The translations under genes and the position numbers were made by a program. A stretch of DNA of 64,000 nucleotides, from NCBI RefSeq assembly GCF_002943465.1, contig NZ_PTQY01000002.1, forward strand, positions 62,001-126,000, given 5' to 3'. Shown here piece by piece: positions 10,615-63,790 of the stretch; the stretch's first letter is position 1; every line of letters starts with the position of its first letter. The notes beneath the pieces are model-generated. The model saw nothing but the letters and a program-made list of their open reading frames with translations. It made no database searches and was not told where the DNA came from. Origin of the DNA: Rhodoferax sp. TS-BS-61-7. GTDB lineage: Bacteria; Pseudomonadota; Gammaproteobacteria; Burkholderiales; Burkholderiaceae_C.

Positions 10615-10628
10615 GTGGCTGTGGATGT

Positions 10629-10688
10629 GCTATCAAATAGGGAGCTGCTTGCGCATATTCCATGCGGGCTAGAGCCCTATTTGATGCA
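10629..10688 (+). repeat. 60-bp palindromic repeat, copy A (intergenic)
   Basis: Between alaS and the tlpA-like gene. The ends ATCAAATAGGG and CCCTATTTGAT are perfect 11-bp inverted repeats, and the core AGCTGCTTGCGCATATTCC is shared with the copies at 25.7, 41.6, 46.2, 52.3 and 63.7 kb. Confidence 0.85.
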
Positions 10689-10691
10689 TAA

Positions 10692-11237
10692 ATGCCCATG
10701 AAACGCCGCCACCTGCTGGGCGCCTTGGGCGTGGCAAGTGTGGCGCCTTGGGCTGGGTTTGCCGCAGCCAGCCCGGGTTTTGACGTGTTGGCCTGGAACC
10801 GCCAACACACCCAGCCGCCCGTGGACTGGGTGGACCTGGAAGGCAAACGCTGGAACCTGCCTGCGCTCAAGGGCCGTGCGGTTTTGCTGAACTTCTGGGC
10901 CAGTTGGTGTGAACCCTGCCGCGCCGAGATGCCCGCACTGCAAACCCTGGCCGAACGCGAGCGCGAACGCCTGGTGGTACTCACCATCAACCTCAAAGAA
11001 TCTTCCGAGGCTATCGCCCGTTTTGTGCAAAACACGGGTCTGGTTTTGCCTGTGGTGCGCGATGTACAAGGCGACACTGCCAAAGCCTGGGGTATCCGCA
11101 TTTACCCCTCCACGGTGTTGATTGATTCCGACGGCCGGACGCGCAGTGTGGTACGTGGCGCGCTGGACTGGGCTGGGCCCGAGGGGGAGCGCCTTTGGCA
11201 GCCCCTGCTGCAGCCTCAGCGCGCGCGCAAGCGCTGA
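10692..11237 (+). CDS. TlpA/ResA-like thioredoxin-family protein
   Basis: 181 residues. An N-terminal RRHLLGALGVASVAPWAG segment looks like a Tat-style export signal or anchor. The thioredoxin domain carries the active site WASWCEPC (C73, C76) and a cis-proline in YPSTVLID. Such proteins act as periplasmic thiol-disulfide reductases, often for cytochrome c or copper-centre maturation. A second ATG two codons in (10698) is an equally good start. Its 3' end overlaps the convergent thioredoxin gene by 22 bp. Confidence 0.87.
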   Translation: MPMKRRHLLGALGVASVAPWAGFAAASPGFDVLAWNRQHTQPPVDWVDLEGKRWNLPALKGRAVLLNFWASWCEPCRAEMPALQTLAERERERLVVLTINLKESSEAIARFVQNTGLVLPVVRDVQGDTAKAWGIRIYPSTVLIDSDGRTRSVVRGALDWAGPEGERLWQPLLQPQRARKR

Positions 11238-15485: not shown

Positions 15486-15562
15486 GTCTGCTGTCGCCGC
15501 GAAGCCGAGGCATCTACAGACTCGAAGCGGTCCTTTCGTGCGCTACAAAGCGGACGTTCAGT
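15486..15562 (-). repeat. Isolated attC-like repeat
   Basis: On the minus strand it runs from ACTGAACGTCCGCTTTG through CGAGTCTGTAGATGCCTCGG, the same core as the repeats between cassettes at 33-37 kb. The left box is ACTGAAC (consensus RYYYAAC, one mismatch). It lies exactly between two small minus-strand ORFs. Confidence 0.5.
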
Positions 15563-18235: not shown

Positions 18236-19387
18236 ATGACCCCCGTTACTTCTTCTGCCCCCGTGGCTTCCCGTGTGGCTTCGCGCCGTAAATTTATGGC
18301 CAATTCGGCTGTAGCCCTTGTAGGTACTGCGCTACCTGCTATCAATTTTGCACAATCGGCCAGCATGGCCGAGCGCCAGTTCAGCCCCAAGCCGGGCGCG
18401 TGGCGCACCTTTGAGGTCACCACCCGCGTGGACATTGCCAAGCCCCAGGGCGCGACCCGCCTGTGGCTGCCCATTCCCTCGGTCAACAGCGACTGGCAAA
18501 AGTCACTGGAAAGTAGCTACCAGACCAACGGCACGGCCCGCATGGAAGACGACAACACCTATGGCGCACGCATGCTGTACGTCGAGTTTGCCGCCGACCA
18601 GGCCAAACCTTTTGTGGAGCTGACCAGCCGCATCCAGACCCAGAACCGGGCTCAGGACTGGAGCCAAAAGTCTGCCCCGGCTGAAGACGCCGCCAGCCTC
18701 AAGTACTGGACCCAACCGACCAGCCTGCTGCCCACCGACGGCATTGTGCGCACCACGGCCTTAGAGGCCACCCGCGGCGCCAAGACCGATGTGGAGAAGG
18801 CCCAAAAGCTGTTTGACTGGATCGTGACCAACACCTACCGCGAACCCAAGGTGCGTGGCTGTGGCGAAGGCGACATCAAGACCATGCTGGAAACCAACAA
18901 CCTGGGCGGCAAGTGTGCCGACCTGAACGCGCTGTTTGTGGGCCTGTGCCGCTCCGTTGGTATCCCCGCGCGCGATGTGTACGGCCTGCGCGTGGCGCCC
19001 AGTGCCTTTGGTTACCGTGAGCTGGGCGGCAACTCTGCCAGCCTCAAGGGGGCACAACACTGCCGTGCCGAGGTCTACCTCAAGGGCCATGGTTGGGTGG
19101 GCATGGACCCGGCCGACGTGGCCAAGGTGATGCGCCAGGAAACCCCGGAGTGGATCAAGACCGCCAAGAACCCGCTGGTAGCCCCGGTGAACAAGGGCCT
19201 GTTTGGTGGCTGGGAAGGTAACTGGATGGCCTACAACGTGGCACATGATGTAGCACTGCCCCAGTCCACCAGCCCCAAGCTGGGCTTCTTTATGTACCCC
19301 GCGGCCGAGACTGCCGCGGGCCGCCTGGACTCTTACGCGCCGGACGACTTCAAGTACCAAATCAGCGCCAAGGAAATCGCGGCCTGA
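18236..19387 (+). CDS. Tat-exported transglutaminase-like (cysteine protease fold) protein
   Basis: 383 residues. The N-terminus has a twin-arginine signal (SRRKFMANSAVAL) whose hydrophobic core is written by a palindromic repeat (copy H). The catalytic triad of the transglutaminase-like fold is visible: C227 in LGGKCADLNALF, H275 in GAQHCRAEVYL and D291 in GMDPADV. Such periplasmic proteins are generally amidases, peptidases or transamidases; the substrate is unknown. The start is the first ATG ahead of the signal. Confidence 0.88.
   Translation: MTPVTSSAPVASRVASRRKFMANSAVALVGTALPAINFAQSASMAERQFSPKPGAWRTFEVTTRVDIAKPQGATRLWLPIPSVNSDWQKSLESSYQTNGTARMEDDNTYGARMLYVEFAADQAKPFVELTSRIQTQNRAQDWSQKSAPAEDAASLKYWTQPTSLLPTDGIVRTTALEATRGAKTDVEKAQKLFDWIVTNTYREPKVRGCGEGDIKTMLETNNLGGKCADLNALFVGLCRSVGIPARDVYGLRVAPSAFGYRELGGNSASLKGAQHCRAEVYLKGHGWVGMDPADVAKVMRQETPEWIKTAKNPLVAPVNKGLFGGWEGNWMAYNVAHDVALPQSTSPKLGFFMYPAAETAAGRLDSYAPDDFKYQISAKEIAA
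18307..18352 (-). repeat. Palindromic repeat, copy H (diverged, inside a Tat signal sequence)
   Basis: Read on the plus strand, GTAGCCCTTGTAGGTACTGC followed by GCTACCTGCTATC aligns with the TAGCGCTTATGGATATTGCG...GCAGCT core of copy C; about 27 of 38 positions match by eye. It encodes residues 25-39 (AVALVGTALPAINFA), the signal hydrophobic core. The most diverged copy, so less certain. Confidence 0.5.
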
Positions 19388-25591: not shown

Positions 25592-25655
25592 CTCGGAGGC
25601 GGTTGAGCTTGCAGCGCGCTGCTGCAGTGTACTGCGCTCCCAGGGTCTTGTATTT

Positions 25656-25715
25656 GCTATGAATTAAGGAGCTGTTTGCGCATACTCCATAAGGGCTAGA
25701 GGCCTATTTCATTCA
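25656..25715 (+). repeat. 60-bp palindromic repeat, copy B (overlaps the stop of the pseudouridine synthase)
   Basis: GCTATGAATTAAGGAGCTGT through GGCCTATTTCATTCA. The downstream arm is read by the minus-strand gene at 25696, whose last codons and TAG stop fall inside the repeat. Confidence 0.85.
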
Positions 25716-26625
25716 AATTTTGCAAGGGCAGCAGCCTGCGCTGACTCTCAAACTGCCGCGCCTCGCCGCTCAGCGGGTCGGTGAAGGCAATGCGCTGGGC
25801 CAGCAGCTGCAGCGGGCGGGCGTAATCGGTAGCGTCTTCGGGGGTGAGGGTGGGGTACATGCCGTCAAACAGCAGGGGCAGGCCCAGCGCCGCCATGTGC
25901 ACACGCAGCTGGTGGCGCTGGCCGGTCAGCGGCTGCAGTTGGTAGCGGGCCCACGGCCCCAGGGTTTCCAGTGGTGTGATGTCGGTGATGGCGTTCACCG
26001 CGCCGTCCACCTCGGTCTGCTGCATGAAGTGGGACGACACGGCGATGCGGCTCTCGCGGTGGATGGGCCAGGGCAGGGCGGGGTTGGCCGGCGCGATGCA
26101 CTCGTAGGTCTTGGCCACCACCCGGTCGCGAAACAGCGCGTGGTAGGCGTCGCGCGTAGCGGGGTTGATGGAGAACAGCACCAGGCCTGCGGTGTCGCGG
26201 TCAATGCGGTGGATGGGGACCAAGTCGTGCAGCCCCAGCCGGTTCTTCAGGCGCACCAGCACGGTCTCTTGCAGGTATTTGCCCGAGGGCACGACCGGCA
26301 AAAAGTGTGGCTTGTCCACCACCAGCAGGTGTTCGTCCTGCCACAGCACCACTTCGTCAAACGGTATGGGCGGCTCGGCCGCCAGCGCGCGGTAGTAGTA
26401 GAGCCGGCGCTTGGGCGCATAGGCGCTGTGCGGCGTCAGCACCAGACCCTGCTCGTCCACCACATCGCCATCCTGCAGGCGCTGCAGCCATTGGGCGTGG
26501 GGGATGCCGGGGAAGCGTTGCACCAAAAATTCGAGCACCGTGGCCCAGGGCCCCTCGGGCAGCACCACGCTGCTGGCGCCTACCCCGTTGCGCGTGGGCG
26601 GGGCGTTGGGGCGGGGGCGCGCCAT
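25696..26625 (-). CDS. RluA-family pseudouridine synthase
   Basis: 309 residues from the ATG at 26625 (MARPRPNAPP). Carries the family signature HRIDRDTAGLVLF with catalytic D142, plus TGQRHQLRVHMAALGLP. It isomerises uridine to pseudouridine in rRNA or tRNA; the exact site cannot be told apart from sequence. The final residues EIGL and the stop are provided by palindromic repeat copy B, so the original C-terminus has probably been altered. It ends the trmB-rlu pair, 10 bp apart. Confidence 0.9.
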   Translation of the reverse strand: MARPRPNAPPTRNGVGASSVVLPEGPWATVLEFLVQRFPGIPHAQWLQRLQDGDVVDEQGLVLTPHSAYAPKRRLYYYRALAAEPPIPFDEVVLWQDEHLLVVDKPHFLPVVPSGKYLQETVLVRLKNRLGLHDLVPIHRIDRDTAGLVLFSINPATRDAYHALFRDRVVAKTYECIAPANPALPWPIHRESRIAVSSHFMQQTEVDGAVNAITDITPLETLGPWARYQLQPLTGQRHQLRVHMAALGLPLLFDGMYPTLTPEDATDYARPLQLLAQRIAFTDPLSGEARQFESQRRLLPLQNLNEIGL

Positions 26626-26635
26626 GCCAGCCGGG

Positions 26636-27427
26636 TTAAATGCGCTCGAACACCACGTCCCACACGCCGTGGCCGAGCTTGATGCCACGGTTTTCGAACT
26701 TGGTGAGCGGGCGGTAGTGCGGCTTGGGCGCGTAGCCGGCCAGCTCGGGGTTGGCTGCCAGCGCGCGGTTCTTCAGCTTGGGCTCGGCGCTCAGCACTTC
26801 CAGAATCTGCTGGGCATAGGGCTCCCAGTCGGTGGCGGCGTGCAGGTAGCCGCCGGGCTTCAGGCGCGCGGCCAGCTTGGCCACCAGCGGGCTCTGGATC
26901 AGGCGGCGCTTGTTGTGCTTGGTCTTGTGCCAGGGATCGGGGAAGAAGATGTGCACACCGTCCAGACTGCCCAGCGGCAGCATGTGGTCAATCACCTCCA
27001 CCGCGTCGTGGTTGCAGATGCGGATGTTGGGAATGTTGTTTTCACCAATGCGTTTGAGCAGGGCGCCCACACCGGCCTCGTGCACCTCGCAGCACAAAAA
27101 GTTGGTGCCCGGCAGGGTCAGCGCAATTTGGGCCGTGGCCTCGCCCATGCCAAAACCAATCTCCAGCACCACCGGGCGCTGTGTGCCAGTTTGGGCATCA
27201 TTTGGGCCGCTAGCCCCCGCCGCACCTGCGAATGCAGCTTCGAAATCGATAGCAGATGGCTGGTAGGGGAAGAGAAATTTCGGCCCCAGTTCCTCCACCG
27301 CCTTGATCTGCCCACTGCCCATGCGGCCCGCGCGCTTCACAAAACTCTTGATGGTGCGCATGAAGGGCTTGGCGCCTTCTTCGGCAGGGTTCTCGGGCGG
27401 GGTGGTGTCGGGTGTGGAGGTGGTCAT
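26636..27427 (-). CDS. trmB: tRNA (guanine-N7-)-methyltransferase
   Basis: 263 residues. SAM-binding motif [12 protein letters not shown], then [12 protein letters not shown]-type loop, the [14 protein letters not shown] active-site region and [18 protein letters not shown]: all diagnostic of TrmB, which makes m7G46 in tRNA. The ATG at 27427 fits; the frame above it has no similarity. Residues 59-78 ([20 protein letters not shown]) are encoded by an in-frame palindromic repeat (copy F), lying just before the SAM domain. Confidence 0.95.
27194..27253 (-). repeat. 60-bp palindromic repeat, copy F (in frame inside trmB)
   Basis: On the coding strand it starts GCTATCGATTTCGAAGCTGC and ends GCCCAAATGATGCC. 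An ungapped alignment with copies A and E gives about 60-65% identity, including GCTATC, AGCTGC, CGCA and GGGCTAG. Codons begin at repeat base 1, the same phase as copy G. Confidence 0.6.
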
Positions 27428-27704
27428 GGTCGGCAGTCGCGGCAAAAAGGCCGGGCCTGCATTGTATGCAGGGGCGGTGGGGGGCATTTTTGGGAGTCGC
27501 GGGAAGGGGGGGCCACTTGCGGGAGTTGGCCAGAGAATGCTTTCTGGAAGACAATCGCTTCCACTTGCCGCACCGCGGGATACGCAGCCGACAAGCTGAA
27601 GTTAGCCTGAAGCCAACAGAAGCGTCTAAGGCTGGTAAAGCACTTCATAGTCAACACTTGTCCCCCGCTTTTCGAGATGCCTACCTTTCATCATAGATAA
27701 ATTC
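27428..27704. other. Junction between core genes and the accessory region
   Basis: 277 bp between the trmB start and the GreA/B-like gene. It contains the trmB upstream region and an AT-richer tract from about 27590. No gene, tRNA or direct repeat was visible. Confidence 0.5.
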
Positions 27705-33535: not shown

Positions 33536-33667
33536 GATCTAATGAATTAGCTATGAAATGGACATCGAAATCGTATCGAACTGGGCCTGGATGCGGAATG
33601 ATCGCTTCTGCCCCAAAGCTTGGGCATCTACAGACTGAAAGCAGTCCTTGAAAATGCAGTATTAACG
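33536..33667 (-). repeat. attC-like site 7
   Basis: Minus-strand boxes: CGTTAATACTGC at the gene-end side and ATTAGAT (consensus GTTRRRY, one mismatch) at the start side of the following gene. Contains the shared core CTTTCAGTCTGTAGATGCCC. Confidence 0.45.
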
Positions 33668-34215: not shown

Positions 34216-34307
34216 TGCTAACGAATCATGTGTGGAAGATTGAGCCTTGCGGAGACGCCAATAGACTGGTTGCTGACATTTGCAGCGATCTAAAGCAGTC
34301 GTTAGGT
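34216..34307 (-). repeat. attC-like recombination site 1
   Basis: On the minus strand it starts ACCTAAC (RYYYAAC) at 34307 and ends GTTAGCA at 34216, with a perfect 7-bp inverted pair CTAACGA / TCGTTAG across 92 bp. The stop codon of the preceding gene (TAA, 34304-34302) lies within the first box, and the next gene starts 10 bp after the last box. Confidence 0.65.
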
Positions 34308-34911: not shown

Positions 34912-35019
34912 ACCTAACGAAAAATTTATCGATTTTGCAGCCTATCGACCCGACACCACGACGCCTGCAGACTGGAAGCGGACTTTTGTCGCACTCCAAA
35001 TCGGTCAGAGTAATTAGGT
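34912..35019 (-). repeat. attC-like recombination site 2
   Basis: Minus strand: ACCTAAT at 35019-35013 and GTTAGGT at 34918-34912, with ACCTAA / TTAGGT as a perfect 6-bp inverted pair 108 bp apart. It shares CTTCCAGTCTGCAGGCG with the other sites. The preceding gene's TAA stop lies in the first box. Confidence 0.65.
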
Positions 35020-35408: not shown

Positions 35409-35517
35409 GCTATCGGAAACATTGGCCTGTGTATTTTGCAGACCGCATTCGCTGCGTAGCTGAGGCGCTTTCAGACTGAAAGCCGACTCTCGTATCGCTC
35501 AACAGCAGTCGTTTACC
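35409..35517 (-). repeat. attC-like site 3
   Basis: Minus strand: GGTAAACGACTGC at the stop of the 35513 gene and GATAGCC near the start of the EF-Tu-like gene. Core GTCGGCTTTCAGTCTGAAAG. Boxes are degenerate but position and core fit. Confidence 0.5.
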
Positions 35518-35845: not shown

Positions 35846-35941
35846 GCTAGACTTTTAGAAAATGGTCGACTTTCGCCCCAGAGCCGAGGCGCCTACAGAC
35901 TGAAAGCCGACTTTAGCTGCGCTCCAAAGCAGTCGTTACGC
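35846..35941 (-). repeat. attC-like site 4
   Basis: Minus strand: GCGTAACGACTGCTTTGGAG, core GTCGGCTTTCAGTCTGTAGG then CGCCTCGGC, ending at GTCTAGC. Same design as sites 1-3 with a degenerate terminal box. Confidence 0.5.
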
Positions 35942-36633: not shown

Positions 36634-37100
36634 ACCTTCTCCTATGACGTCCAACGTGTTGTAGACGTCAAACAGGTCTTATGAACAGAGCCACATACAC
36701 CCATGATTCCCTCCCGTGGATTCTTTAAGTGCTTGATTTATATCCGATTAGTCAGACCCGATGCCGCGTGGCCATCGATGAAAATGAGGCCAAACCCTGC
36801 AAACCTGCTTATGAACAAGGCGGCTTGCTTATGAGCACCGTTAACGCCAGCTCAGGAACTCTTTGATTTCATTGCGCATTTTGACGTGGGATGCAATTTG
36901 ATGGTGATAACGGAATGGCCGAACCCTGCAATAACCCAGCGCGCGGTGTCTTCATTGACAGTCCGCTTCCGCCGCCTAGCGGGGACGTCAAAAGACTGAC
37001 TGCGGTCTTTCGCAGTGGTCCAAAGCGGTCATTACGTTTGAGATGAGAGGCAAACAACGGCGGCTGTACGTAGGCAAAAGTACTAAGGCGCGACCCGCCG
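36634..37100. other. 467-bp gap with attC-like site and perhaps a decayed cassette
   Basis: Holds GTTGGAC (minus strand, 36656-36650, exact GTTRRRY) next to the preceding gene and an attC-like core at 36960-37037 (GTAATGACCGCTTTGGACC, then CAGTCAGTCTTTTGACG). The 300 bp between are too long for one attC, so a cassette gene may have been lost here. ORF 36869-37135 is a translation of the repeat. Confidence 0.45.
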
Positions 37101-38977: not shown

Positions 38978-41152
38978 GTGTTCCTGCTTCGTGTGCTTCA
39001 GGGCTGGTCGACCGGTTTGCGCATTTGCCTGCTGCTGGCTAGCTGCGTGCTGGTGGGGCAGGCGCACGCAGCGCCCGGGTTGCAGCTGAACGTGGATGAG
39101 CAGGCTTGGCTGGCAGCGCACCGCGGCAAGACGTACACGGTGGGTTTTGATCCGTTTGCGGGTATGGACAGTTTTGAATTCCGGGGCCACCGCGTGGGCC
39201 TGTTGCACGACCTGCTCAAGGACATGCAGGCCCAGTTGGGGCTTCATGTGGTTCCAGCCCAGGTCAAGGGCTGGGATGATGCTTACAACCGCTTTGTTGC
39301 GGGCGACATCGACATCCTCTACGGCGCTAACGCCACGCCCGAGCGCGAACGCATCATGCGGTTTACCCGCCCGGTCTGGAAGTACCCCTACACCGTGTTT
39401 GCACGCAACGACACGGCGGTGCAGACGCTGGGCGACCTGGATGGCAAACGTGTGGGTTTTATTCGCAATGACTTTGTCATCGGGCAGCTGCCGCTGGAGT
39501 TTCCGAACATCCATGTGCAGAGCGTGGAGTTTGACGAACAGGAGGCGGGCCTGAAGGCGCTGGAGCGCGGCGAGCTGGACGGCTTTGTGACCGCGGGGGG
39601 CGGGTTGGAGTATGAATTTTTGTACGCCCACCCCAAGCTGGCCCTAGTGGCAGAGCTGCGCGCCATCACCTCGGACATGACCCTGGCCGTGGCCCGGGAC
39701 CAGCAGCTTCTGGCAGGCCTGTTGGACCGCTACATTGCCCAGCGCGAGGCCGTCATTCAGGAGGTGAAAGCCAAGGCGCAGCGCCTGTACAACCGCAAGA
39801 TCCTGCGCCTGAGCGAGGCCGAGTTGCGCTGGCTGGAGAAAAGCGGCACCGCCGTGGTGGGCGTGGCCGAGGACTACCTGCCTTTCGACTACTACGACAA
39901 AGGCGAGTACCGCGGCATTGCCGGCGAGATGTTGCAGCGCATTGGCGACACGGTGGGCATCCGCTTTGAGGTGGTCAGTGGCACCTTTGCCGACATCATG
40001 GACAAGGCGCGCAAGGGCGGTGTGGACGTGGCCAACATGGCCAAGACCGAAGACCGGCTCAAAGACTTTGTGTTTCCCCACGCCATCAGCACCGAGCGCG
40101 ACATCATCGTGGGCCTCAAGAGCAGCGCGCCGGTGCAGGATGTGTACGGGCTGGACGGGCAACGGGTGGCGGTGATTGACGGTTTTTGGCACGAGGAGTA
40201 CCTGCGCAAGAACCTGAAGAACCCGCAGATCGTGCGCACCGCAGACATCATGGAATCGCTGCGCCTGGTGCGCAATGGCGAGGTGGCCTACATGATCGAG
40301 AACCCCACGGTGGTGGAGTTCTACATCAACGGCCTGGGCTACACCGACGTGGTGAAACGCGGCAACACCTCCAAAGACTCGTTTGTGTACTTTGGCGTGA
40401 GCCGGCGCCAGCCCGAGCTGGCGTCCATCATGGACAAGGTGATTCCGCTGATCCGCTTTGAGGACGCCAAGTACGCCGGCATCCAGAGCGTGCCGGCCCT
40501 GCGCAACGAGGCCAACCGGCGGCTGATCCTGATCGTGGCGTTTTTGCTGGCGGCCTTGCTGGGCATTTTGATGCTGGTCATCAAGGTGGTGCGCAAGCTG
40601 GCCGAGCAAAAGGCCCGCACCCAGTTTTTGACCGAGCGCGAGCATTTTCTGTACACCGACACCCTGACCGGCTTTCACAACCGCAACTACTTCAGCGACC
40701 GGGCCGAGCAGGCGCTGCGGCCCGACTACCCGCAGGCCGTGGTGGTGGCCGACTTGAATAACCTGAAGCGTGTGAACGACAGCTACGGCCACGCCGCGGG
40801 TGACGCCTTGCTGCTGCTGTTTGCGGGCTTGGTGCGTGAGCAGTGGCCCGAGGGGCATTTCTTCCGCATGGGGGGTGACGAGTTCCTCATCGTGCTGCCC
40901 GCTACCAGCGAAGCCCAGGCCCTGGCGGGCATGGAGGGGCTGCGCCAGCGCTGCCTGGGTGCCCGGCTGCCAGCCGCGCCGGATGCCTGGGGCGCCCCCA
41001 GCGCCGCGCTGGGCCACGCCATGCGTGCGAATGCAGAGCAACCCCTGGCGCAGTGCATTGCGCAGGCTGACCAGTGCATGTACCAGGCCAAGGCGCTGAT
41101 GAAAAAGCGGCGTTCGGACCTAGAGGATCCTGCGCCCGAACCCTCAGCCTGA
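38978..41152 (+). CDS. Diguanylate cyclase with tandem periplasmic solute-binding sensor domains
   Basis: 724 residues from a GTG. Signal/anchor at 14-31, then two SBP_bac_3-type ligand domains (about 45-255 and 285-505), a membrane helix (about 513-534) and a GGDEF domain with intact FFRMGGDEF near 632. It should make c-di-GMP when an amino-acid-like ligand binds outside. The RxxD inhibitory site is missing (residues at that spacing are W and G), so product inhibition is unlikely. The first sensor lies close to ABC-type amino acid receptors. Confidence 0.9.
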
Positions 41153-42127
41153 GGCGGTGGCCAGGCGCCATGCTTGCACCCAGCTTGCTAGGTGGTCTGG
41201 CGTGTGTGTGCCGGCGCCTGGCGGCAGGCCCAGCGCCTGTGCGGCCTGCTGCAGGGCTTGCAGCGCAGCCTGGGGTGTGGCGGTGTCCAGTGCGGTAGCG
41301 CCGTTTTGTTTGCTGAGTTTTTCGCCGTTGGGGCCCAGAACCAGCGGCGTGTGCAGGTAGTGCGGGGTGGGCAGGCCCAGCGCGCGCTGCAGCCCAATTT
41401 GCCGCGCCGTGTTGTCGGCCAGGTCTTCACCGCGCACCACATGCGTGATGCCTTGTGCCGCATCGTCCACCACCACCGCTAGCTGATAGGCCCACAGGCC
41501 ATCGGCGCGTTTGAGCACAAAGTCGCCTACCGCCTGTTCCACATGCTGGCTTTGTGGGCCCAGGCGGCGGTCGGTCCAGTGCAGTAGCTGGGCGTTATTT
41601 GCTATGAATTCAGGAGCTGCTTGCGCAATATCCATAAGCGCTAGAGGCCAATTTGGCTTAAAAATAGCGGTATCAGTGCGCAGGCGCCAGGCACGACCGG
41701 GCTTGCCGTGTAGGCCGCCTTGCTCGGGTCTGCAGGTGCCGGGGTAGACCAGTTCGCCGTGGCGCGGCTTGCCATCGCCCCGCACGGCCAGCGCTTGTTC
41801 AATGTCTTTGCGCGAGCAGGCGCAGGCATAGGCCAGGCCGGCGGCAATCAGTTGCTCCAGCGCTTGTTGGTACAGGTTGTTGCGCTGGCTTTGCCACACG
41901 GGCGGTTCGTCGGGGTGCAGGCCGCAGGCGGCCAGTTGCTGCAAGATGGTCTGGTCGGCACCCGGTATGCAGCGCGGTGTGTCCACGTCTTCGATGCGCA
42001 CCAGCCACTGCCCGCCATGCGCCCGCGCATCCAGCCAACTGGCCAGCGCCGCAACGAGCGAGCCCGCATGCAGCGGGCCCGTGGGGGAGGGCGCGAATCG
42101 CCCTCGGTAGGTCAAACGGCTGTTCAC
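41144..42127 (-). CDS. gluQ: Glutamyl-Q tRNA(Asp) synthetase
   Basis: 327 residues, somewhat longer than the usual 290-300. [15 protein letters not shown] holds the HIGH-type motif, zinc ligands are in ACACSRKD and YPGTCR, and KLSKQNGA is the KMSKS-type loop. The anticodon-binding domain is absent, as in all GluQ. It glutamylates queuosine in tRNA-Asp. Residues 157-176 ([20 protein letters not shown]) are encoded by palindromic repeat copy C, an in-frame insertion between the zinc region and the [10 protein letters not shown]-type core. Its ATG overlaps the next gene's stop. Confidence 0.93.
41601..41660 (+). repeat. 60-bp palindromic repeat, copy C (in frame inside gluQ)
   Basis: GCTATGAATTCAGGAGCTGC through AATATCCATAAGCGCTAGAGG; 44 of 60 positions equal copy A without gaps. 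The coding (minus) strand reads [10 protein letters not shown] through the core, in the same phase as copy H. Confidence 0.85.
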
Positions 42128-46178: not shown

Positions 46179-46628
46179 ATGCAATACCGTCGTGCTATCT
46201 CTTTGCTAGCTGCTTGCGCAATGTCTATGGGGGCTACAGCCTCATTTCATGCCCAAGCGCAAACCGATGCATCGGCCCTGAGCGCCGTGTCGGCCATGCC
46301 ACTGGCGTCGGTGGTAGGGGCCAGTGCGGGCGCGGTGGTGGCGGTTCCTGTGGCTTTTTCTAGCGCCGGTGCGGTGCTGGTGGTCAAGGGCGTGGAAGCC
46401 TCTGCCAAGGGCACCGTCTACCTGTTGGAACGTGTATCCGACGGCGCCCGCGCCAGCGTGGAGGTGTCGGGCAAGGTGGCCAGTGGTGCCTCCACAGCCG
46501 TGGGCACCGTGGTCACGGTCAGCGTGATTGGTGCAGGTGTGGTGCTGTCGGTGGCCGGCACGGTGATTGCCTTTATTCCCAATGAAATTGGCAAGGCCTT
46601 GTTGCACAACGAACGTGTGAGCCGCTGA
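46179..46628 (+). CDS. Exported hypothetical protein with repeat-derived signal peptide
   Basis: 149 residues. The signal peptide is MQYRR plus AISLLAACAMSMGATASFHA and then QA; those 20 hydrophobic codons (6-25) coincide exactly with palindromic repeat copy G. The mature part is Val/Ala/Gly-rich (VVGASAGAVVAVPVAFSSAG) with alternating small hydrophobics, perhaps an outer- or inner-membrane helix hairpin. Its stop overlaps the next gene's ATG, so it works with the DUF2145 protein. Function unknown. Confidence 0.75.
   Translation: MQYRRAISLLAACAMSMGATASFHAQAQTDASALSAVSAMPLASVVGASAGAVVAVPVAFSSAGAVLVVKGVEASAKGTVYLLERVSDGARASVEVSGKVASGASTAVGTVVTVSVIGAGVVLSVAGTVIAFIPNEIGKALLHNERVSR
46194..46253 (+). 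repeat. 60-bp palindromic repeat, copy G (forms a signal peptide)
   Basis: GCTATCTCTTTGCTAGCTGC, TTGCGCAATGTCTATGGGGG, CTACAGCCTCATTTCATGCC: 44 of 60 positions equal copy A without gaps. Codon boundaries fall on repeat base 1. Confidence 0.8.
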
Positions 46629-47446
46629 TGCGCAGCGCCGCATGCCGTGGGGTGGTGGCGCTTGCCCTGGGGCTGGGGGCACTGGCCCCGGCCCAGGCGG
46701 GCCGGCCCTGCAACGAACCCCAGGCCCTGAAGGTGGCCACGGTGGAGCGTTCGCTGGGCCTGGCCCTCAGCACCCTGAAAACGCTGGACGCCAGCGGTGC
46801 CAAGGTGGTGGTGATGGCCCGTGCCGGGCAGGACTTGAGCAAATACGGCATTCGTTACTCGCACCTGGGGTTTGCCTACCAGCAGCCGGACGGGCAGGGT
46901 GGCCAGGTGTGGCGCGTGTTGCACAAGCTCAACCAATGCGGCACGGCCGAATCGGCCATTTACCGCCAGGGCCTGGGCGAATTTTTTATGGACGATCTGT
47001 GGCAGTACGAGGCGGCCTGGCTGGTGCCCACCGACGCCGTGCAAAAGCGCCTGCTGGCCGTGCTGCTGGACGAGAAACAGGCCCTGCAGCTGCACCACAA
47101 GCCCTACAACATGGTGAGTTACCCCTGGGCACAAAAATACCAGCAGTCCAACCAGTGGGCGATTGAAACGCTGGCCCTGGCCCTGGCGGCCGACGGCAAG
47201 GCCCCGGTGCTGGACCGGCTGCAGGCCCAGGCCTGGTTGCAGCAGCAGGACTACCAGCCCAGCACCCTGACCATTACCGCGCTCACCCGCCTGGGCGCGC
47301 GCATGACCAAGGCGAATGTGGCGTTTGACGACCACCCCGATGTGAAGCGTTATGCGGACAAGATTGAGACCGTGACCGTGGATTCGGTGTTTGCCTGGAT
47401 GCTGCGTGCTGGCTTGGTCGACAAGCCGCTGGTGACGCAGCGGTGA
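46628..47446 (+). CDS. DUF2145 family exported protein
   Basis: 272 residues. Signal peptide VALALGLGALAPAQA, then the DUF2145 region (SKYGIRYSHLGFAYQQ, GEFFMDDLWQYEAAWLVP, KPYNMVSYPWAQKYQQSNQW). A cysteine pair (C28, and C in LNQCGT) is conserved in the family. Periplasmic, function unknown. Overlaps the preceding exported gene by one base; coupled. Confidence 0.85.
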   Translation: MRSAACRGVVALALGLGALAPAQAGRPCNEPQALKVATVERSLGLALSTLKTLDASGAKVVVMARAGQDLSKYGIRYSHLGFAYQQPDGQGGQVWRVLHKLNQCGTAESAIYRQGLGEFFMDDLWQYEAAWLVPTDAVQKRLLAVLLDEKQALQLHHKPYNMVSYPWAQKYQQSNQWAIETLALALAADGKAPVLDRLQAQAWLQQQDYQPSTLTITALTRLGARMTKANVAFDDHPDVKRYADKIETVTVDSVFAWMLRAGLVDKPLVTQR

Positions 47447-51700: not shown

Positions 51701-52336
51701 GGCCACCTGTTTGACGAGATGGCGCTGGAAGTGCGCCGGTTTGCCAAACGGCCGATTGAGGAGGTGCTGGAAACCCGCGAGCCGCAGGTGCTGGCCGGCA
51801 TCATCAGCGGTTTCAAGGTCATCAACGGCAACCGCGGCAAGGTGGGCATCTTCACGCTGGACGACAAGTCTGCGGCCATCGAGGCCACGGCTGACGAAGC
51901 CATGCTGACCACCTACCGCCATCTGCTGCAAGACGACACCCTGGTCATCGTGAGCGGCCGCCTGCAGCAGGGGCGCAACGGCTTTGCGGCGCGGTTTGTG
52001 GTGCAGCAGCTGTGGGGGCTTGAAGAGGCGCGTTGCCGCTTTGGCAAGTTCCTGCGTGTGGCGGTGCAGCTCGATGGGCAACAACGCGCACCCGATTTAC
52101 ACGCCATGGTGCGCGAGTTTCCGGCGGTGCGGGAAATGTCGGAGCAGGGTGAACTGGTGCGTGGCCTGCCGGTACGCCTGCAACTGCAGTGCCTGACGCC
52201 CGAGGGTGAGGTGGCGGGCGCTGCGGTGGACCTGCACCTGGATGAGCGGGCCAAGTTTTTCCCGAGTGACGCGGCCCTGGCCAGCTGGCGGGGGCAGGCT
52301 TACCAGGGCAAAGCTGCCATCGTCTACGATTTATAA
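48770..52336 (+). CDS. dnaE: DNA polymerase III alpha subunit
   Basis: 1188 residues. PHP domain at the start (FVHLRLHTEFSVVDS), palm with the catalytic DxD in MPDFDIDFCQTNR, IGMHAGGVLIAP, YRPGPMDLIPSFV and AFAGYGFNKSHAAAYSLL-type motifs, tandem HhH, OB and C-terminal tau-binding regions. The replicative polymerase. The ATG at 48770 (not the open frame back to 48458) gives the normal N-terminus; a TACAAT at 48758 is too near the ATG to be its main promoter. Confidence 0.98.
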   Translation: MFVHLRLHTEFSVVDSTNRIDEVVKAAAKDGQPAMAITDLNNLFGAIKFYREGRGKGVKPLIGAELIIEGLGTDPAAVSRVIVLVQNKQGYLNISELIARAFTQNVVKNQAVVKMAWLKELHEGLICLAGAQAGPVGQALVQGDTDRAYEAAMQLAGVFPHRFYLEVQRAGRVDDEAHVVATVQLAARMMLPVVATHPIQFTEPDDFEAHEARVCIADGEILSNPKRVRRFTREQYFKSAAQMEALFADIPSAIANTLEIAKRCSLTLVLGKPQLPVFPTPEVNGQRMSPEEYFRYASFEGLKDRMLHLYPKADAREAQMPRYVERLEFELATILKMGFPGYFLIVGDFINWAKNNGCPVGPGRGSGAGSLVAYALKITDLDPLQYNLLFERFLNPERVSMPDFDIDFCQTNRNLVIDYVKDKYGKDAVSQIATFGTMAARGVVRDVGRVLDMSYTFCDGISKLIPNKPGTNVTLQLPPTDGKKNDKYVYASEAEPLLAEREEKEEDVKTLLELARKLEGMTRNIGMHAGGVLIAPGKLTDFCPLYQQPGSESAVSQYDKDDVEAIGLVKFDFLGLATLTILEIAREFIMKRHPGQENFAYENLPLNDAKVYRLFSEGKTEAVFQFESVGMQRMLVDAKPSRLEDLIALNALYRPGPMDLIPSFVARKHGKEVIEYPHPLVAEMLSETYGIMVYQEQVMQTAQILGGYSLGGADMLRRAMGKKKAEEMAEHRAIFRAGAAKNDISEEKADEVFDLMEKFAGYGFNKSHAAAYSLLAYHTAWIKVHYTAEFFCANMTVEMDDTDKLKVLFEDAETMGLSFEPPNINRGFYRFEPISNKEIRYGLGAIKGTGEQAILAIVAAREGRGPTEEAGPFKSLFDFARRVDRTRLNKRCVEALIKAGAFDTIHLNRASLVESMDRAFDFAAASAANANQHGLFDMGGEDDHGSSTQEPDLVEVLPWGVREQLTQEKSAVGFYLSGHLFDEMALEVRRFAKRPIEEVLETREPQVLAGIISGFKVINGNRGKVGIFTLDDKSAAIEATADEAMLTTYRHLLQDDTLVIVSGRLQQGRNGFAARFVVQQLWGLEEARCRFGKFLRVAVQLDGQQRAPDLHAMVREFPAVREMSEQGELVRGLPVRLQLQCLTPEGEVAGAAVDLHLDERAKFFPSDAALASWRGQAYQGKAAIVYDL

Positions 52337-52393
52337 GCCTTTTAGGCCTCTAGCCCCCGTGGATATTGCGCGAGCAGCTATCAAATAAATAGC
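52334..52393 (-). repeat. 60-bp palindromic repeat, copy D (after dnaE)
   Basis: GGCCTCTAGCCCCCGTGGAT then ATTGCGCGAGCAGCTATC, the reverse orientation of copy A. It starts inside the dnaE TAA stop region and lies between convergent dnaE and tolA. Confidence 0.85.
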
Positions 52394-52405
52394 GCTCTGT
52401 ATGCC

Positions 52406-63687: not shown

Positions 63688-63696
63688 CCACGATTT

Positions 63697-63756
63697 GGCA
63701 TGAAATAGGCCTCTAAGGCCTATGGAATATGCGCGAACAGCTCCTGAATTCATAGC
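63697..63756 (-). repeat. 60-bp palindromic repeat, copy E (after tctA)
   Basis: GAAATAGGCCTCTAAGGCCT, ATGGAATATGCGCGAACAGC, TCCTGAATTCATAGC: inverse orientation of copy A, 9 bp after the tctA stop. Confidence 0.85.
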
Positions 63757-63790
63757 GGTTCAGGGGCTGTTCCTGCGTTAACATTGCCGC

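Follow-up and report, generated by a model that had tools for sequence, protein, structure and literature searches.

The signal peptide of a small exported protein of Rhodoferax sp. TS-BS-61-7 is encoded by one occurrence, copy G, of a dispersed motif of about 68 bp. In the reading preferred here, at a probability of roughly 0.56, a function at the level of DNA maintains the motif, which would have arisen at this site by substitution in place, and signal peptides are among its favoured sites.

Copies of the motif in the window

The stretch of DNA under analysis (64 kb, hereafter the window) contains eight copies above the inclusion threshold of a profile built from five window copies. Copy G was not among these five, so that its score of 35.5 bits over the 64 kb searched comes from a profile of other copies. 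The copies are as follows, together with the gene to which copy G belongs.

10624..10695, + strand, copy A, intergenic, directly ahead of the redoxin-family gene at 10692 (68.5 bits; gene PF00578/PF08534)
18291..18348, - strand, weak copy, antisense to the N-terminus of the gene for a transglutaminase-core protein (18236-19387, + strand; 20.1 bits; PF01841)
25651..25719, + strand, copy that runs into a pseudouridine synthase gene (25696-26688, - strand) at its 3' end (73.9 bits; PF00849)
27188..27257, - strand, weak copy inside the gene of a TrmB-like methyltransferase (26636-27487, - strand), in sense frame f0 (23.8 bits; PF02390)
41595..41667, + strand, copy in a gluQ-like gene (41144-42127, - strand), antisense to the gene, with an extra loop of 24 residues (76.0 bits; PF00749)
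46179..46628, + strand, exported-protein gene of 149 aa, its signal peptide coded by copy G; no Pfam match
46192..46256, + strand, copy G, coding for the signal peptide from its hydrophobic core to its cleavage zone (35.5 bits, E 2.9e-10; 36.1 bits with the 27-copy profile)
52327..52395, - strand, copy over the 3' end of a gene that terminates at 52336 (58.2 bits; 14% overlap)
63691..63761, - strand, intergenic according to the gene caller used (63.5 bits); the same site is occupied in the close relatives G247 and G248

An earlier note on this DNA had aligned a 60-base segment of copy G with copy A. The alignment was confirmed, with 44 identities in 60 ungapped positions between 46194-46253 and 10629-10688, as was its position in the protein, where GCT at 46194 is codon 6 counted from the ATG at 46179 and the twenty codons are residues 6-25. 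The placing of four of the eight copies in coding sequence (the gluQ-like, trmB-like, 18236 and 46179 genes) also held. Gene calling without a bonus for signal peptides missed the starts of both the 18236 and the 46179 gene. The N-terminus of the 18236 protein, SRRKF, is taken to be Tat-like; this name was given by eye, as were RarA, glyA, nrdR, ArgF, YcnI and polysaccharide deacetylase.

The gene next downstream of 46179 (46628-47446) encodes a DUF2145 protein. A second and unrelated family of repeats, of about 45-66 nt and containing CAGACTGAAAGC and AAAGCAGTCGTT, occurs at 15491-15558, 33605-33649, 34238-34303, 34942-34986, 35446-35513, 35870-35937 and 36966-37033, clustered amid small minus-strand ORFs, and could represent cassette-like sites. 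There is also an inverted repeat at 1540-1614 and 1881-1955, with 75-nt arms that are 93% complementary and spaced 266 nt apart.

Anatomy of the motif

Alignment of 27 copies (A1) gave the consensus ATTTGCTATnAATTnAGGAGCTGCTTGCGCATAnTCCATAAGGGCTAGAGGCCTATTTGAnTnnnAAAT. At its ends, where a REP or MITE moved by a transposase would have terminal inverted repeats, it has only ATTT and AAAT. Read in f0 it yields approximately A-x-x-x-I-A-A-C-A-x-S-x-G-A, a hydrophobic, alanine-rich stretch. Its A/T content is periodic near 11 bp (permutation test, P 0.0035 within 10.25-11.0 bp and 0.047 across all periods). Indels are rare, with insertions in two and deletions in six of the 135 copies scoring at least 30 bits.

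The repeat had been called palindromic in the earlier note, a description for which the alignments gave no support. No conserved hairpin was detected by RNAalifold in the 27 copies, the consensus fold having -1.19 kcal/mol and zero compensatory pairs, and in the 135 copies covariation mostly linked adjacent columns; distant pairs were few, and were weak or in sparsely covered end columns. An identity as a palindrome or RNA hairpin was rejected on the fold and the covariation. No Rfam family reached its gathering threshold over the window, and one copy of the motif had just a 12.3-bit match (E 4.1).

Codon choice and the motif

Signal peptides rich in alanine and leucine might merely resemble the repeat by chance at the level of protein, and the f0 reading does resemble a signal-peptide core. 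This explanation is at odds with a recoding test in which amino acids were kept, codons redrawn by host codon usage and the product rescored against the motif. The real codons of copy G are worth 51.9 motif bits, and the same amino acids recoded gave -24.8 +/- 9.3, with 19.0 the highest value in 20,000 trials; 14 of 17 third codon positions agree with the motif. Because recoded sequences for the same peptide never reach the observed score, the likeness of copy G to the motif lies at the level of DNA. Codon choice follows the motif in 13 of 13 motif-bearing stretches, none of whose scores was reached by recoding (20,000 trials), and 3/3 motif-free orthologues stood at chance (P 0.96, 0.22 and 0.27). 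Resemblance between proteins is in consequence a most improbable account.

The proposal that a dispersed element encodes the signal peptide of the 46179 protein was upheld, and it extends to several unrelated exported proteins. In the TS-BS-61-7 genome motif-coded N-termini were found in the 46179 protein, LolA (L175), LolB, SCO1/SenC and a TctC receptor, with two further examples in proteins for which the scanned pieces gave no Pfam match. In relatives, DUF1775 (YcnI-like) proteins have motif-coded signal peptides, a family that was not found in the TS-BS-61-7 genome, and one motif-coded N-terminus (L115) belongs to what is presumably a polysaccharide deacetylase. LolA (L175) and LolB (C8:255424) are partners in lipoprotein transport, and both have motif-coded signal peptides within one genome.

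Export signals with and without the motif

Matches to the 46179 protein were found in 64/150 family genomes and 29/100 genus genomes, and the loci examined came from 30 of the 64 matching family genomes together with 28 further genus loci. The motif reached 12 bits, a cut of our own choosing, in 22 of 57 loci (own gene counted, the DUF1775 gene L078 excluded, and L073-L077 being distant homologues); these belong to the same genus and to four other genera (L023, L024, L025 and L046). At the same cut the motif was present in 20/30 LolA and 17/29 DUF1775 loci.

All full-length members listed in these three sets appear by eye to have a signal peptide, whether the motif is present or absent, and the motif-free 46179 orthologues have ordinary signal peptides (by eye) and unrelated DNA. 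The distance from the start to the mature protein, for the loci that passed the anchor pattern (46179 40/58, DUF1775 29/30, LolA 30/30, the rest being dropped), was 21.1 residues with the motif versus 23.9 without it in LolA, 23.1 versus 23.5 in DUF1775 and 31.7 versus 31.6 in 46179. An insertion of 66-70 bp would add 22 residues, and since motif-bearing signal peptides are not longer the export signal was seemingly not created by the motif. The earlier suggestion that the element generates an export signal is thus unsupported: orthologues without the motif appear to have signal peptides too, nothing is gained in length where it is present, and in the 46179, LolA and DUF1775 sets equivalent signal peptides are encoded by unrelated DNA, the outcome which the earlier note had said would refute its reading. 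From these comparisons the motif seems to rewrite existing export signals rather than to make new ones.

Substitution in place, insertion or conversion

The principal alternative is a mobile element of the RPE (Rickettsia palindromic element) or MITE type, which would insert about 70 bp in genes and spacers; an older signal peptide would then have been deleted, and decayed copies would form the gradient seen between species. Dispersal in several hundred copies fits such an element, and RPEs do insert in frame within genes according to the available text of PMC10969869. Two loci also look like insertions on comparison of sequences. The gluQ gene is about 25 residues longer than in several relatives (L288, L291-L293), a gain that corresponds to the loop, and in G235 a spacer, presumably between glyA and nrdR, has a 48.9-bit copy within 81-87 bp that are absent from G125 and G225.

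Most of the other genic sites compared are different. The CCA-adding enzyme gene scores 63.7 bits in the TS-BS-61-7 genome and at intermediate values in other species, and the motif is absent in 8/30 loci, including those of G225 and G210. The segment RRDxxIN..DPxxG nevertheless has 33 residues in 22 of the 30 loci (19 counted by script pattern and three by eye), including 8/8 motif-free loci and 14/21 of those with at least 12 bits; its length in the remaining eight is 31 to 53 residues. Within it TINA(I/M)A becomes TINSIA, which matches AATTCAATAGCT of the motif. In the RarA-like gene downstream of lolA there are 70 bases between the flanks in 20/24 loci, motif-bearing or motif-free, and 73 in four motif-free loci, two genomes being represented twice or nearly so among the 24. 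Five orthologue pairs with the motif-free G225, at 65% identity or more, were compared, two of them involving weak copies (18.9 and 22.0 bits): three are ungapped in the motif, one of these with an 8-residue gap just upstream, and the trmB-like gene and gluQ differ in length there by 2 and 5 residues, respectively. This comparison drew on the 10 of 60 genic proteins that were matched in 480 kb of G225, the other five being distant (27-29% identity).

An extra in-frame peptide absent from orthologues was thus seen in gluQ, and not in LolA, DUF1775, 46179, the RarA-like gene or most CCA loci, and the RPE-like insertion in genes envisaged by the earlier note is unsupported at most of the genic sites compared. 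Against a mobile element there is in addition the lack of a hairpin or clear distant covariation, the small number of indels, the near-constant length in four of the five G225 pairs and the fact that no double signal peptide was apparent by eye in the orthologues listed. All 13 projectable pairs of window copies (7/8 copies) with G247 and G248 retain the motif, without gain or loss, which gives no sign of current transposition in this small sample. A mobile element is on balance unlikely.

Ectopic gene conversion or template switching, by which the motif would be copied onto partly similar sequence and would at times add sequence, could account both for replacement at constant length and for an occasional gain, and many donor copies exist. 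The species with intermediate scores at the CCA, RarA-like and 46179 loci look gradual rather than one-step, however, and the covariation, mostly of adjacent columns, shows no trace of subfamilies. This process is less probable still than a mobile element.

At most genic sites compared the motif seems instead to occupy coding sequence that was already there, whose length has changed little or not at all. Under the preferred reading, substitutions toward the motif would build up at sites where the protein can bear them, and existing signal peptides are predicted to have been rewritten with export kept. Signal peptides would be favoured because the motif in f0 reads as a hydrophobic, alanine-rich stretch.

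Abundance and placement in the genome

With the 27-copy profile 172 copies at E<=1e-3 were found in 1.22 Mb, and none in the reversed-sequence control. The sample consisted of contig C10, 400 kb each of contigs C8 and C9, and the window, and by extrapolation to the whole genome of 4.19 Mb there are some 590 copies, or one per ~7 kb. When the whole genome was searched with the model, 150 of 1784 candidates were scored, and all 150 reached at least 50 bits. The 172 copies are divided between the strands (95 on + and 77 on -). On two of the three contigs their spacing is more even than chance would give; C10 is the exception (CV 1.04, P 0.74).

Sixty of these copies are wholly genic, 73 partly overlap a gene and 39 are intergenic. 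A check on whether genic copies exceed chance went the other way, wholly genic copies being scarcer (60/172) than the 89% coding share of the sequence would give. Overlaps with gene ends number 70 at 3' ends versus 18 at 5' ends. Convergent gene pairs enclose 35, and divergent pairs 9, of the 111 non-genic copies; the spacers of at least 50 bp available in the sample are 71 convergent and 153 divergent.

The reading frames of the 60 genic copies (31 in sense f0, 19 in antisense a1 and 10 in others) explain the earlier statement that the genic copies of the window are always in frame, since 50 of the 60 use one of the two frames that the consensus leaves free of stops. This bias follows from the stop codons present in the remaining four frames of the consensus, as read by hand.

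Copies in f0 are enriched at N-termini, with 7/31 beginning in the first 15 residues where 1.5 were expected (P ~5e-4), although genes were called by our own codon-usage script with a bonus for signal-peptide-like starts, which could inflate this count. One of the seven (C8:229073) is unlike a signal peptide. Copies in a1 showed no such enrichment (2/19, 0.95 expected, P 0.25).

Distribution among genomes and relation to competence

Of the 150 family genomes two had the strict motif pattern, and no others in that set are listed under the same genus; looser variants occur in other genera. Carriers include Rhodoferax bucti, a MAG labelled Rhodoferax sp. OV413, Comamonadaceae bacterium OS-4 and two Comamonadaceae MAGs, a short list that reflects a scan limited to starts of the form ATG-xxx-CG-TTY. 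The 480 kb of G225 searched gave no match at E<=0.01. In a tree built from LolA, GluQ and CCA-adding enzyme sequences, motif-rich and motif-poor genomes are interleaved; the tree was midpoint-rooted, richness was represented by a pattern count, and gain and loss are not told apart by it. A single plasmid record contained the motif, at two places (Rhodoferax antarcticus, 31.9 kb, NZ_CP019241.1:28595-28653), and with no phage record matched an origin from plasmid or phage was rejected.

The motif would most likely be kept through recognition by a DNA-binding machine. The first candidate, a guess by analogy with the USS of Pasteurellaceae and the DUS of Neisseriaceae, is biased DNA uptake, and the second is a protein of chromosome architecture. 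ComEC (PF03772) was found in 36/38 genus genomes, motif-free ones among them. The two genomes lacking a match, G175 and G249, have 19 and 18 motif-peptide matches, although as drafts they may have lost the gene, and this pattern weighs against biased uptake. The idea that ComEC tracks motif content was rejected, there being no correlation among the 38 genus genomes. The comEC gene of TS-BS-61-7 (domain C3:18049-18855) itself holds a 59.7-bit copy at C3:18364-18435.

Comparison with known systems

Uptake sequences, in the parts of PMC2346458 and PMC12616744 available, occur hundreds to thousands of times, both within genes and between them, with dialects between lineages. One orientation is commoner in reading frames, and in Pasteurellaceae there is a bias to gene termini (PMC2346458, available portion); the USS has A/T-rich stretches at helical spacing, and the uptake signals described there extend to about 13 and 32 nt (PMC12616744, available portion). 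The Rhodoferax motif is likewise over-represented on both strands, in genes and in spacers, and it resembles these sequences in the preference for one orientation within reading frames, the lean to gene termini, the helical spacing of A/T-rich stretches and the variation between lineages. It differs in being about 68 bp long, in occurring once per ~7 kb and in not being tied to ComEC, which is present in motif-free genomes and unmatched in two that bear the motif. As to the origin in place expected of a USS or DUS, the picture is mixed: most of the loci compared differ little or not at all in length, and gluQ and one spacer look like insertions.

To RPEs, which measure about 150 bp (PMC10969869, available portion), the motif is similar in being dispersed and in lying within reading frames, in frames that are open. 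It is shorter, has no palindrome and mostly adds no length to the host protein.

A 2017 survey of spaced motifs reported the most significant motif pairs, 140, from R. ferrireducens T118, and in Polaromonas naphthalenivorans the pair ATAGCT(N)22CAAAAG in 125 copies, 101 of them intergenic, often near genes and 34 between convergent genes; the available part of the survey gives its function as unexplained (PMC5217627). These pairs can be compared with the Rhodoferax motif by description only, and signal peptides go unmentioned in that part of the survey. Searches of the literature returned no paper combining 'DNA uptake sequence' or 'palindromic element' with 'Comamonadaceae', and core words of the motif gave matches on other subjects only, as far as the text of those matches was accessible.

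Implications

A wider version of the preferred reading can be put forward tentatively, and is rather to be doubted than believed: a recognition system for uptake or chromosome organisation, with a motif of about 68 bp that has variants among other genera of the family, may have rewritten conserved enzymes and the signal peptides of unrelated exported proteins, those of LolA and LolB included, codon by codon. Motif-coded signal peptides are already more general than the earlier note proposed. If the preferred reading is true, DNA driven by recognition could determine the protein sequence of core genes for about 20 codons in a row, with signal peptides as a tolerant landing place for a DNA motif. 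This would offer a natural test of how far selection at the level of DNA pushes proteins, and the motif would be a candidate uptake or chromosome-organising signal for the Comamonadaceae.
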